Origin: Akkermansia sp.
GTDB taxonomy: Bacteria; Verrucomicrobiota; Verrucomicrobiia; Verrucomicrobiales; Akkermansiaceae
Assembly (NCBI GenBank): GCA_017521405.1
Contig: JAFXCP010000012.1
Location: 32,591 to 96,590 of the forward strand
Length of the DNA: 64,000 nucleotides
Direction of reading: 5' to 3'
A program made the translations under genes and the position numbers. This document shows, piece by piece, positions 41,578-47,156 of the stretch. Position 1 is the stretch's first letter. Each line of letters opens with the position of its first letter. Under the pieces are notes generated by a model, which searched no databases, had not been told where the DNA came from, and saw nothing but the letters and a program-made list of their open reading frames with translations.

Positions 41578-42762
41578 TTATTTGTAGGAGGCGCGGTAAA
41601 TCTCCACACAATCCTCCACCGAGAGGGGCAAAGGATCCGCCCCAAATAAAAAGCCCATGGCAGAGAAAGCATTTTGAGCCGTAGCTTCGAACTCATCCGG
41701 AGAAATCCCATAATCACTCATCTTCAAATCGGCCACGCCGCAAGCCTCCTGCAAACGTACCAGAGCCGTAATAAAATCCATAGGTTCCGCCGCATCCTGC
41801 ATACCCAAAGCCTGAGCCATCCGCACAAAGCGCTCCGGGCAAGCTCCCTTGCGAATAAAATGGGTGTAATAAGCGCGAGATATCATAATGAGACCTGCCC
41901 CATGCGGTAAATCCTGATGAAATGCGGAAAGCGCATGCTCCAAAGAATGCTCGCTGGTGCAAGTACCCACCACCATTTGTATGCCCGAAAGCCAATTGCC
42001 GAAAGCCACGCGCTCCCGGGCGGCAAGGTCCTGCCCATTCTGTACCGTAGCAGCCAAATATCGCCCCACATTCTCAATCGCAGTAATGGACACCATATCA
42101 CTCATTAAATTGGCCTTCGAGGAAATATACCCCTCCGTGCTATGGAACAAGGCATCGAACCCTTGGAAAGCTGTGAAACGAGGCGGCACAGAACACATCA
42201 GCTCCGGATCCACCACTGCCAAACGGGGGAACAAACGTAAGCCATCGAACACCGCCGTTTTCTCCTGCGTTTCCGGGTTCGTAATCACACCGCCGCCATC
42301 TGTCTCGGAACCAGTGCCTGCAGTTGTCGTAATCGCCACCAGAGGTAATGGCGGCACCTCCACCGGCATCCTCTTACCTGTACCAAAAAGTACATAGTCC
42401 CACAAATCTCCCGGATTCGTAGCCATGATAGCCATAGCCTTAGCCGCATCCATGCAACTGCCGCCTCCTAAAGCCAAAATAAAATCACATGCGTGGGTAC
42501 GCGCAGCATCTGCCCCTTCCATCACGGTATCCTTCAGCGGATTGGCCTGCACCTTATCAAAAATCACCGCCTCCACCCCGGCCAAACTAAGTTGCTCCAA
42601 AGTGCGGTCCAAATACCCATTTGCACGAGTAGACTTGCCGTTGGATATCACCACCAAGGCCTTACGCCCGGGCAAAGACTCCTTGTGCAGCCGATTCAGA
42701 GAGCCGGCTCCAAATACTGTTCGAGTCGGCACTTGGTAATCAAAAGAAGTTCCTGTTTCCAT
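41578..42762 (-). CDS. Iron-containing alcohol dehydrogenase
   Basis: 394 residues, group III Fe-ADH. The NAD(P)-binding segment LALGGGSCMDAAKAMA, the TTTAGTGSETDGGGVI segment and the metal-binding HSLEHALSAFHQDLPHGAG are all present. It interconverts alcohols (possibly 1,2-diols or butanol) and aldehydes; substrate unknown. It is transcribed divergently from the TIR-STING gene, with both promoters inside about 140 bp. Confidence 0.92.
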   Translation of the reverse strand: METGTSFDYQVPTRTVFGAGSLNRLHKESLPGRKALVVISNGKSTRANGYLDRTLEQLSLAGVEAVIFDKVQANPLKDTVMEGADAARTHACDFILALGGGSCMDAAKAMAIMATNPGDLWDYVLFGTGKRMPVEVPPLPLVAITTTAGTGSETDGGGVITNPETQEKTAVFDGLRLFPRLAVVDPELMCSVPPRFTAFQGFDALFHSTEGYISSKANLMSDMVSITAIENVGRYLAATVQNGQDLAARERVAFGNWLSGIQMVVGTCTSEHSLEHALSAFHQDLPHGAGLIMISRAYYTHFIRKGACPERFVRMAQALGMQDAAEPMDFITALVRLQEACGVADLKMSDYGISPDEFEATAQNAFSAMGFLFGADPLPLSVEDCVEIYRASYK

Positions 42763-42770
42763 ACGTCTGC

Positions 42771-42799
42771 ATTCTCGCTCTACCCAAGGTCTCTGTCAA
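42771..42799 (-). promoter_or_regulatory. Promoter for the Fe-alcohol dehydrogenase gene
   Basis: Minus strand: TTGACA (42794-42799), 17 bp, GAGAAT (42771-42776), 8 nt from the ATG. Confidence 0.75.
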
Positions 42800-42854
42800 G
42801 CCTATTTCCGATTGGATGTAACACCGGCAATACTGCATTCCCAAAGCGTTTTTA

Positions 42855-42883
42855 TTGACAAAATCAGTTATACGGATTACAGT
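42855..42883 (+). promoter_or_regulatory. Promoter for the TIR-STING gene
   Basis: TTGACA at 42855-42860, 17 bp, TACAGT at 42878-42883. An ATG at 42884 abuts the -10 box and would lie upstream of the transcript start, so the ATG at 42905 is the likely start. Confidence 0.75.
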
Positions 42884-42904
42884 ATGAAAAACAGTTATTT
42901 TGCC

Positions 42905-43888
42905 ATGGAAAATAAACATTCTGTACTGATTTATTCGAGTTCTCGCAGCCTGGATATCGCTCGGGACATCCAAAAACATCTTGAAGGAGACTTTGACTGC
43001 ACAATTTGGGAGGACTGCTTTCTATACAACACCTCTTTTATAGAATCAGTCCAAGCTCTCAACCAGATATACGATGCATGCATCTTCATTGGTTCACGCG
43101 ATGTCCAATCCGTCATCAAAGCTCAAAATACCCACCCGGAGCAAATATACTGGGCCCCCTGTGATAACATCATCTTCGAGATAGGATTTTACATGGGAAT
43201 GCATGGAATAGAAAATGCCATTATACTTCAGCAAAAAGACGTAACTCTACCCTCAGACATAAATGGCAGAAGATTTTTTAACTTCGATGTTAAAGAGGAA
43301 CCTTCAGGAAGGAAAATCATCATCAATCAGGACCATCTCGCTAAACTCAAGGAAAGAATACACCAGATTGCGGACAATGCTTTCCGGCATAACTCCGTTG
43401 CGAGCCATGTAACAAAGTCATACATAGACAATTACATCACCCCCTTACTGAGACACATCAAGAACGGGACCCCTTTCGAATTAGAAGATAAGAAGTGCGA
43501 GTGCAAACACATGCGCATTTTATTCCCGACACACGTTCCGGTGGACATCAATACCTATGCCGACAACGTGCTTAAAGATTATAAACATACAACACTGACA
43601 ACAGGGGATCAAAAAAACTTTGACCTGCACTATAAGGTACTACCCCACAATGAAGCCAGCCCAAACATCCCTATTGAAATTATCGATTTCCCCCGAATCC
43701 TAAAATCATGCGTGGGTAACATCCGCGAAACTATTTCCCATTCAATGTCCGACTCTCAGAAGAAGGAACTGGAAATGAAGGGAATTATACACTTTAGAAA
43801 AATCCTCGAAGAAAAATTGCCCTCCTTATTGCAGGATGAAGGCTTCTTCCATTTCGATAACAGACAATCCTCCACTGAGCTACTATAA
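42905..43888 (+). CDS. TIR-STING fusion protein (putative cyclic-dinucleotide-activated NADase)
   Basis: 327 residues in two domains. Residues 5-130 match the CAP12/TIR-like nucleotide-binding family: HSVLIYSSSRSLDIARDIQKHL, IWEDCFLYNTSFIESV, and DNIIFEIGFYMGMHG with candidate catalytic Glu92, then TLPSDINGRRFFNFD. Residues about 162-310 resemble the STING cyclic-dinucleotide domain: SYIDNYITPLLRHI, MRILFPTHVPVDINTYADN, IPIEIIDFPRIL and a C-terminal helix FRKILEEKLPSLL. In CBASS defence, TIR-STING oligomerises on c-di-GMP and degrades NAD+. No CD-NTase gene occurs in the window. The region looks more AT-rich than its neighbours, suggesting transfer. The STING assignment is by pattern and should be checked structurally. 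Confidence 0.78.
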   Translation: MENKHSVLIYSSSRSLDIARDIQKHLEGDFDCTIWEDCFLYNTSFIESVQALNQIYDACIFIGSRDVQSVIKAQNTHPEQIYWAPCDNIIFEIGFYMGMHGIENAIILQQKDVTLPSDINGRRFFNFDVKEEPSGRKIIINQDHLAKLKERIHQIADNAFRHNSVASHVTKSYIDNYITPLLRHIKNGTPFELEDKKCECKHMRILFPTHVPVDINTYADNVLKDYKHTTLTTGDQKNFDLHYKVLPHNEASPNIPIEIIDFPRILKSCVGNIRETISHSMSDSQKKELEMKGIIHFRKILEEKLPSLLQDEGFFHFDNRQSSTELL

Positions 43889-43987
43889 GCACAATACTTT
43901 GCCATGTCTCCCTCTCATAGCACCACTGCCGCGCAAGAAACTCCTAAGAACAATTCTAAATTTTAGACATTATGAGCAAGTCTGAGC

Positions 43988-44076: not shown

Positions 44077-44958
44077 ATGATTAAGGTAGCCATTGTAGGA
44101 TACGGGAATATCGGCAAGTACTCAGTCGATGCACTGCGCGCAGCGCCGGATATGGAGTTAGTAGGCATTGTACGCCGAGCAGGAAGCGCCCCCGTACATG
44201 GAATTAAAACCGTCTCGAACATCGATGAGCTGGGCCCGGTGGATGTGGCACTGCTCTGCACCCCGACCCGCAGTGTAGAGGAAACCGCCCTCCCCCTGTT
44301 AGCCAAAGGAATCAACACCGTAGATAGCTTTGATATTCACGGGGGAATTGTCGCCCTGCGCCGCTCTCTGGGTAAACAAGCACAAGCACACCAAGCAGTG
44401 GCGGTCATCTCCGCCGGCTGGGATCCCGGTTCGGACTCCGTGATGCGTACCATGATGCTGGCCATGGCACCCAAGGGTATCACCTACACGAACTTTGGAC
44501 CCGGCATGAGCATGGGGCACAGTGTGGTGGCTCGCTCCAAAGCCGGGGTGAAGGATGCCCTCTCCCTCACGATTCCCACAGGCTCCGGGGTACACCGCCG
44601 CATGGTCTATGTACAACTTGAGGACGGTGCCGACTTTGCCGAGGTGGAAGCAGCCATCAAAGCAGATGATTATTTCTGCCACGATGAGACACACGTACAG
44701 CAAGTGCCGGATATCGACTCCCTCCGGGATATGGGACATGGTGTTTACATGGAACGTAAGGGCGTATCCGGCACCACGCAGAACCAAATTTTCAAGTTCG
44801 AAATGCGCATCAATAACCCTGCCCTGACAGCACAGGTAATGGTAAGTGCCGCACGCGCCAGCATGCGCTTAGCCGCCGGCTGCTACACCCTTCCGGAAAT
44901 CCCGCCCATGGATTTCTGCCCCGGCGATAGGGAAACCCTCATTGCCCGGCTTGTATAA
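44077..44958 (+). CDS. ddh: meso-Diaminopimelate D-dehydrogenase
   Basis: 293 residues. VAIVGYGNIGKYSVDAL is the NADP-binding Rossmann start; DSFDIHGGI, ISAGWDPGSDSVMR, TNFGPGMSMGHSV and the C-terminal QVMVSAARAS are characteristic. It makes meso-DAP directly from tetrahydrodipicolinate and ammonia for lysine and peptidoglycan. The ATG at 44077 matches the family start. A GTG at 44023, 6 nt after the -10 box, would add 18 residues and cannot be excluded. Confidence 0.93.
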   Translation: MIKVAIVGYGNIGKYSVDALRAAPDMELVGIVRRAGSAPVHGIKTVSNIDELGPVDVALLCTPTRSVEETALPLLAKGINTVDSFDIHGGIVALRRSLGKQAQAHQAVAVISAGWDPGSDSVMRTMMLAMAPKGITYTNFGPGMSMGHSVVARSKAGVKDALSLTIPTGSGVHRRMVYVQLEDGADFAEVEAAIKADDYFCHDETHVQQVPDIDSLRDMGHGVYMERKGVSGTTQNQIFKFEMRINNPALTAQVMVSAARASMRLAAGCYTLPEIPPMDFCPGDRETLIARLV

Positions 44959-45157: not shown

Positions 45158-47156
45158 TTGAAAAGAGATAACACCACATACCAATACCACATCAACGGGA
45201 TGCGAGGGCTGGCTATTCTCATGGTGTTATTCTACCATATGAGCGAAGCGCTTGCGCCTCATGGCTTTATTGGGGTGGATATTTTCTTGGTGATATCGGG
45301 TTATTTCCTCATTAAGGGATTTATGAAGACTCCCGGGGAAGCTCACCTTGGAGGGTATTTCACCCGCAGGATTACACGTATTTATCCGAGCTATTTGCTC
45401 ATGTGTCTGCTTGTTCTACTAATGGCCATTCCTGTATTCGATATGGAAGCCATTGAAAAAAACAGCTATTATAGGACTCAACGCACTTCTGGGCACCTCC
45501 AACATTTATCTGGAGGAATCCTCCGGTGGCTATTTTGATGCCGGCGTGGCTCAACTTCCGCTAGTACACACCTGGTACTTATCCGTATTGCTGCAATGCT
45601 ACCTGTTTTTCGCATTGGGTTGGTGGCTCATGTGCAAATGGCCTCGCAAAAGGGTACTGTGGGTACTGGGCAGCATAGCCCTGCTTTTCTTTCTCTGCTG
45701 GAACATTCCGCAAATTGCCAAGAGTTTAAATAAAATGGGCTTTTTTGCCGGCATGCAGCTTCCCGGCTATTCCTATTATTGGACCTCCGGGCGTGTCTGG
45801 GAGCTGCTGCTCGGCGGAGGCATTCTGCTACTACCCACACTGAAAAGCACCGGGAAATGGAGCAAATGGCTGTGCCTTTTCCTGTTCATCTTCCTGCTGG
45901 TAGAAGCCTTTATCTCCTTCAAAGGATTAAAACGCAACAATCTTCCCGTAGTGCTTGCTGCTTGCACCCTCATCTGGCTGTTACCCGCCGCCGGTGGTGT
46001 TACCTTGCGCTTGCTCAACAGCAAAATAATACAATGGCTGGGCACTATCTCTTTTTCCCTGTATCTGGTACACTGGACTATCATCGTTTACTGGAACTGG
46101 CTCAGTGGGAGGAGCCCCGAATGGACGGACTATTGCGGCATGTTACTCCTTTCGCTCATTGCGGTGCTTTTGCTTTACCATGGCGTAGAAAAGCGGCGTT
46201 TCACCCTGAAATGGACTCTCATCAGTGCTGTTCTTCCCATTAGCTTACTTATCGCCGCATGGGGAAGTGAAGGATTCCCCTTCCTCCGGGCAGATATCAA
46301 TGCCATATGCAGCCAGCCGGTATCCACATTTCATGCGGTAACACACAAGGAATACAACACCGATATACTGCCTGCCTTCGAGGCCAGAGATGAGAAAAGC
46401 ACCACCTACATCGATGAAAAAGGAAATAAGGTGCCGCCGGAAAACAGATTGCTGCTACTGGGCGACATCTCCCGCAAACCGGATTTTGTGATATGCGGAG
46501 ACAGCCATGCCGGCTCCCTGCGCTATGGCATCGATGTGGTAGGCCGCCAAGCCGCTTTTTGTTCCATTGCAGTTCCCACATATGTAACTCCTTTTACCAA
46601 TTATACCAGCAGCCGATACTATTTCTCCCCCGAACGCCAAACTGCGTTCTTCTCTTGGTTGGAAGCACATCCGGAGCTAAAGAAGGTAATCATTGTCCAA
46701 TGTTGGAATGCCCGTATCAACAATCCGCATGGCCTGGATATGGACATGGAGGGAAAAATGGTGCGGAGGAAAACCAAATTTGAGCAAGCGGAAGCAGGTC
46801 TGCGCGATTTCCTGCAAGAACTCAAAAAGCGCGGCAAAAGTGTTTTACTTTTAACAGGCATCCCGGAAATTAAGAATGAAAACCCGGGGCAATATATACG
46901 CGTGAGCAAAATCCTCGGAAAGGAAATAAACGAGGCTCAGTTATCCTGCACGATTGCAGAATATGCAGCCACGAATGACCACCTCAACGCCATGTTGAAT
47001 AAACTGGCGGCGGAAGGGCTCTGCCAAGTGATTCACCAAGAAAAGCACCTGCTCAAAGATGGTGTATTCCGGGCTTAGCAGGAAGGAGGCCCCCTTTACA
47101 TGGCAGACCATTTCCACCTCTCCACTGCCGCTCGGTTCTCTCCGTCGAAGGCATGA
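45158..47156 (+). pseudogene. Acyltransferase 3 / SGNH-domain (OafA-type) gene with a frameshift and an in-frame stop
   Basis: The first part encodes the acyltransferase-3 start (NGMRGLAILMVLFYHMSEAL, GVDIFLVISGYF, RITRIYPSYLL). At an A7 run (45456-45462) the sense moves to another frame and continues with the remaining membrane helices (HTWYLSVLLQCYL, LYLVHW) and an SGNH hydrolase-like domain (FVICGDSHAGSLRYGID). Losing one A restores the frame. A TAG at 47076-47078 then precedes 25 more in-frame codons holding the expected DxxH motif (MADHFHLS), so the intact gene would end at 47156. The only start is a TTG at 45158. It would have O-acetylated a surface glycan. Confidence 0.82.

Follow-up and report, generated by a model that had tools for sequence, protein, structure and literature searches.

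A solitary TIR-STING gene with substitutions in its ligand pocket in an Akkermansia genome without a recognisable cyclase

A stretch of 64,000 nucleotides from the Akkermansia sp. assembly GCA_017521405.1, referred to below as the window, carries a gene for a TIR-STING protein that stands alone between the genes of an iron-containing alcohol dehydrogenase (ADH) and a diaminopimelate dehydrogenase (ddh). Bacterial STING is understood as the receptor for the product of an adjacent cyclase gene. Here no cyclase of the families searched was detected in the genome, the predicted fold is intact, and several positions that read the ligand in related proteins are substituted. Since pocket substitutions are combined with a kept scaffold and a missing cyclase, the best account seems to us a solitary nucleotide-gated NADase effector: an intact, horizontally acquired TIR-STING that might work without a dedicated cyclase and sense a nucleotide not recognisably made by the host. 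We stop just short of calling this reading probable.

The features discussed are the following (positions in the window).

41578-42762, minus strand: ADH, left flank, divergent; a gene of the genus
42763-43944: segment that has no equivalent next to ADH or ddh in the compared relatives of the genus; its sole gene is the TIR-STING gene
42855-42883, plus strand: sigma-70-like match, TTGACA-17-TACAGT, at chance frequency
42905-43888, plus strand: TIR-STING gene, 327 amino acids; possible alternative start at 42884
42923-43288, plus strand: TIR (CAP12-PCTIR_TIR) domain, residues 7-128
43418-43804, plus strand: prok_STING domain, residues 172-300
44077-44958, plus strand: ddh, right flank; a gene of the genus

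The TIR-STING gene and its surroundings

The CAP12-type TIR and the prok_STING domain of the fusion both reached the Pfam cut-offs, and the predicted fold is intact and matches the TIR-STING fold over its full length, which rules out a chance resemblance. The preliminary description of this DNA had named the protein a TIR-STING and had proposed comparing its predicted structure with bacterial TIR-STINGs; the name is confirmed, and the comparison came out in its favour. Identity with SfSTING, the TIR-STING of Sphingobacterium faecium, is 20-23%, and the frame is intact across 327 codons despite very high divergence. The promoter that had been ascribed to the gene did not hold up, the sigma-70-like match being no commoner than chance. 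A 12-nt imperfect direct repeat (11/12), at 42896-42907 (start codon) and 43895-43906 (just past the stop), brackets the open reading frame (ORF); it may be due to chance, and the repeat scan also yielded a second two-copy family of the same length.

The solitary placement and the odd composition noted earlier proved right. The host genome (G000) comprises 1,985,446 bases in 38 contigs, with a completeness of 99.67% and a contamination of 2.54%, and was compared within a genus set of 77 searched genomes of 1.7-3.5 Mb. The ddh protein matched in 49 of 75 genus genomes, its own included, with 92-96% identity among the 28 closest other matches; the ADH query matched in 77 of 77, paralogues included, the best other match being 82%. 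DNA homology to relatives ends on the left at or before 42745 in all seven loci; on the right its start lies at 43942-43948 for 13 of 29 loci and beyond that for the remaining 16. An exact empty site is not demonstrable, since the four genomes whose ADH is closest (G299, G293, G259, G192) have ADH and ddh on separate contigs. The presence/absence survey proposed earlier placed the TIR-STING in one of the 77 genus genomes, the host genome alone, and its GC content of 0.418, against 0.495-0.568 in six other window genes, is the lowest among the 51 ORFs listed. From the missing counterpart segment, the single occurrence and the low GC we naturally infer that the gene was acquired by horizontal transfer.

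Carriage by a phage or plasmid was rejected: no relatives were found in 50,697 phage records or by a single-protein viral scan, the ten viral loci L154-L163 held no STING domain by the STING profile, and in none of the 23 matching plasmid records did the match reach 80% of the length of the protein (35-47% in the 20 rows listed). A single-protein scan of genome contigs with the window protein returned no relatives.

The neighbours ADH and ddh take the place that a cGAS/DncV-like nucleotidyltransferase (CD-NTase) holds beside TIR-STING in an operon of the cyclic-oligonucleotide-based anti-phage signalling system (CBASS). In the genome, SMODS (PF18144) gave no match at E <= 10, and neither GGDEF nor PDLC00807 matched. 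PF18144 failed to detect CdnE-type cyclases adjacent to other TIR-STING genes (no match in L014 and L016, below the cut-off in L015) and was judged a weak test by itself, so that PDLC00807 and PDLC00774 were added and run across 19 genomes having a TIR-STING. This set, selected for similarity to the window protein, combines a survey of the order, in which 11 of 288 genomes carry prok_STING (six with TIR-STING, five others), with a genome-contig search, in which 16 of the best 80 of 244 confirmed loci carry STING by profile, three of them (L092, L108, L143) dropped as duplicates of L014, L015 and L013. Twelve of the 19 genomes have a cyclase near the TIR-STING, and all twelve gave a match with PDLC00774, PDLC00807 or both, which counts as a positive control rather than a discovery, since the pairing label was taken from the neighbour gene. 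The remaining seven (G000, G186, G320-G324) gave no match at E <= 0.5 with either model; G186 held one 33-residue match at E 0.54. Canonical c-di-GMP signalling tends to be missing from bacteria with STING, and the 17 genomes of the 19 without a GGDEF match agree with this; the two with GGDEF (G322, G324) are both solitary, too small a number for any conclusion. Pfam scans of 41 of the 48 window proteins found no cyclase and, the nearest proteins included, no DisA domain, no genome-wide DisA search having been made; PADLOC scans of the 48 matched 41 families, with no CBASS cyclase among the 25 listed. The earlier impression that no cyclase-like protein is encoded in the window extends to the assembly, in which no CD-NTase or GGDEF gene is recognisable, three cyclase models and GGDEF being negative.

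Active site and ligand pocket

The NADase active site of SfSTING comprises S10, R78, N80, E84 and D110, and R78 lines the NAD pocket (PMC9402430). Four of the five residues are kept in the window protein, as Ser11, Asn88, Glu92 and Asp118. The intact frame, the kept catalytic residues and the intact predicted fold at high divergence argue for selection on the protein during most of its history. The alignment covered 18 of the 19 genomes (L014, whose TIR-STING frame is split in two ORFs, was omitted). Where at least 15 of the 17 other proteins share a conserved residue, the window protein keeps it in 26 of 43 columns and L017 in 27 of 43, the remaining relatives in at least 33 of 38-41.

To read c-di-GMP, bacterial STINGs employ a lid arginine (R233 in PcSTING, R230 in MySTING) for the Hoogsteen edge of guanine, an aromatic residue two positions after it, an aspartate for guanine N2, a stacking residue and an asparagine of helix alpha1, with a threonine contacting the phosphate (Ko et al., PMC8748872); the lid motif RX(Y/F) defines Class I, which binds c-di-GMP (PMC8748872). 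In the window protein Asn176, Tyr177, Phe239 and Asp261 are kept or conservative, Asp261 corresponding to the Class I aspartate that contacts guanine N2. Its lid reads K237-N238-F239, neither the RX(Y/F) of Class I nor the RXR of Class II (3'3'-cGAMP), with Lys237 in place of the Arg present in 17 of 17 other TIR-STINGs. The phosphate-contacting Thr conserved in Class I is likewise replaced: the positions D+3 and D+4, one of which is Thr in 17 of 17 others, are Arg264 and Ile265. Moreover, the LPST motif (residues 164-167) just ahead of the prok_STING domain is lost, and the Glu at 293, kept in 17 of 17 others, is changed. Since the lid Arg and the phosphate Thr are replaced and the stacking residue and Asp kept, strict specificity for c-di-GMP is improbable; such substitutions of ligand-reading residues on a kept scaffold speak for a changed or relaxed ligand. 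The earlier suggestion that the sensor answers to another nucleotide gains support by inference from the Arg-to-Lys lid change and the replaced Thr.

Several points weigh against this interpretation. The position of SfSTING Arg78 is Cys86 in the window protein and Arg in 17 of 17 others, and a change in the NAD pocket means that catalysis itself could be altered. The difference in kept columns between the TIR (18/25) and STING (8/18) parts is modest and drawn from small numbers. RX(Y/F) is also missing in 4 of 17 relatives (L082 has RXR; L017, L078 and L142 have neither motif), so that the lid motif alone is no marker of a new ligand, and Lys237 could still contact guanine. The lid alignment, at 18-24% identity, is uncertain; the losses outside the pocket fit relaxed constraint as well as retargeting; and the structure model is a monomer without ligand, built with an alignment of TIR-STINGs.

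Solitary TIR-STINGs in other genomes

The arrangement had been put forward as new, but as a unique case it did not survive the comparison: five further TIR-STING genes (L017, L083, L084, L088, L105) have no cyclase alongside, and none was detected in their genomes. Their scanned neighbours are unrelated to cyclases, and no match was found in their loci with the CdnE profile or in their genomes with two cyclase models; since most solitary genomes are metagenome assemblies, this negative counts for less than it would with closed genomes. L078, on a 4.9-kb contig too short for an assessment of its surroundings, was left without a pairing state in the tree, its genome having no cyclase match. A maximum-likelihood tree of the 18 proteins requires at least three changes between the paired and the solitary state, of which well-supported branches alone force one. 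Solitary proteins are clustered in the tree (only 9 of 500 shuffles gave a value as low), an argument that they did not arise in an entirely scattered fashion. A grouping of all six in one clade was rejected (p-AU 0.0026, to be read with the very long branches in mind), and a clade of the window protein and L017 alone gave p-AU 0.042; their branch lengths are 4.48 and 3.95, the median being 0.67.

Stand-alone TIR-STINGs might even represent a recurring, cyclase-free form of STING immunity whose receptor senses a non-host nucleotide, namely foreign c-di-GMP where the pocket is canonical and another nucleotide here, an extension that we regard as doubtful for now. In the literature searched, mostly without subscription papers, we found no description of a cyclase-less bacterial TIR-STING, which is no proof of novelty, and no paper on bacterial STING together with Akkermansia.

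Other arrangements were observed in passing. At L014:5407-6387 (G281) a TIR-STING beside a CdnE-type cyclase is broken into a TIR ORF and a STING ORF, and a 1066-residue TIR and WD40-repeat protein (L105:6576-9773) lies just upstream of a solitary TIR-STING. At L018:2331-3425 and L020:5557-6657 STING follows a domain whose weak resemblance to nucleoside deoxyribosyltransferase stays below the Pfam cut-off; these two proteins, scanned out of the five further STING genomes of the order (L019, L021 and L022 were left out), gave no CAP12 TIR match. PMC10732462 mentions fusions of STING with a deoxyribohydrolase. In L202-L204 (G629, G584, G451; same class) the frames with a STING domain are short, 215-282 residues, and possibly represent another architecture.

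Elsewhere in the window, an AT3-SGNH acyltransferase gene is split across the overlapping frames 45158-45538 and 45453-47078, which match the Acyl_transf_3 profile at 3-112 and then 103-326. A run of A at about 45456-45463 lies close to the frame junction, and the split might reflect slippage, phase variation or a sequencing error.

Competing explanations and known systems

As a solitary nucleotide-gated effector, the protein would be triggered by a nucleotide not recognisably made by the genome, either carried in by a phage or mobile element or produced as a result of infection. The nucleotide would bind the STING dimer and close the lid, filaments would assemble, and the TIR domains would split NAD+, so that the infected cell would be arrested or killed. 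The chief rival is a CBASS remnant, an effector transferred or left without its CD-NTase, which would now be silent, tolerated without ligand and drifting. The evidence favours neither decisively, and we consider a remnant possible, if on the unlikely side. The occurrence in a single genome of 77, the lack of a detected cyclase in the genome, the change at 17 of 43 columns conserved in relatives and an amino-acid make-up unlike that of the alignment all suit a remnant, as do the Arg78-to-Cys change in the NAD pocket and the lost LPST motif. It is harder to reconcile with an unbroken frame of 327 codons in so highly diverged a protein, with the kept catalytic Glu, Asn, Asp and Ser, and with the predicted integrity of the fold. 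Indeed, solitude need not mean decay, since the solitary L083 (38/39), L084 (36/40), L088 (37/39) and L105 (38/39) keep nearly all conserved columns; unlike these four, L017 (27/43) is as diverged as the window protein.

An ordinary CBASS split in space, its cyclase encoded in trans (in an assembly gap or on an uncaptured plasmid or prophage) or belonging to a family outside the reach of the models, for instance the c-di-AMP synthase DisA, appears less likely still. Accessory elements may be missing from an assembly in 38 contigs, single models can fail, as PF18144 did with the CdnE cyclases of L014, L015 and L016, and some bacterial STINGs are linked to DisA (PMC10739871, citing Burroughs and Aravind 2020), which was checked here in window proteins. 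However, the genome is 99.67% complete, three cyclase models and GGDEF were negative, and both flanks are genus genes, so that no cyclase has been cut off beside the TIR-STING. The cyclase in trans offered by the preliminary description is therefore disfavoured, unless the cyclase lies in an assembly gap, was on a plasmid now lost or goes unrecognised. That a foreign stretch was joined into the contig during assembly or binning is very improbable: ADH and ddh were never found adjacent in the compared relatives and the contamination estimate is 2.54%, but the gene is complete and lies inside one 96.6-kb contig, between two genus-typical genes (ddh 92-96%, ADH up to 82%).

A lone TIR-STING with a changed pocket, whose genome shows neither a recognisable cyclase nor a GGDEF protein, suggests that STING may detect infection unaided, which would parallel animal STING, able to respond to bacterial dinucleotides. 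If the solitary TIR-STINGs were inert, they would exemplify immune effectors outliving their partners. In either case, an intact TIR-STING of the anti-phage suicide kind, carried by a gut-type bacterium and with key pocket positions changed, makes the sensed ligand a testable question.

Among known systems, SfSTING (PDB 7un8), the Cap12 of a CBASS, uses the CBASS cyclase CdnE and c-di-GMP (PMC9402430); it has an RXF lid (PMC8748872) and Arg78, whereas the window protein has KNF and Cys86. With the Class I proteins PcSTING (7ebd) and MySTING (7ebl) the window protein has in common the guanine-N2 Asp, the alpha1 Asn, a bulky stacking residue and the lid Phe; Class I has RX(Y/F) and the phosphate-contacting Thr, in contrast to its KX(F) and replaced Thr. 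Some bacterial STINGs without lid motifs, of unknown ligand specificity, have been noted (Hou et al. 2023, PMC10739871, citing Burroughs and Aravind 2020). The TIR-STINGs of L083 (Deltaproteobacteria), L084 (Anaerolineae), L088 (Catalimonadaceae), L105 (Bacteroidetes) and L017 (same family) are solitary like the window protein; unlike it, the first four keep the RXF, Asp and Thr positions. The stand-alone STINGs of choanoflagellates, eukaryotic and in another gene arrangement, likewise have no detectable cyclase; they are reported to bind c-di-GMP and were suggested to be sensors of a foreign bacterial ligand (PMC12424679).
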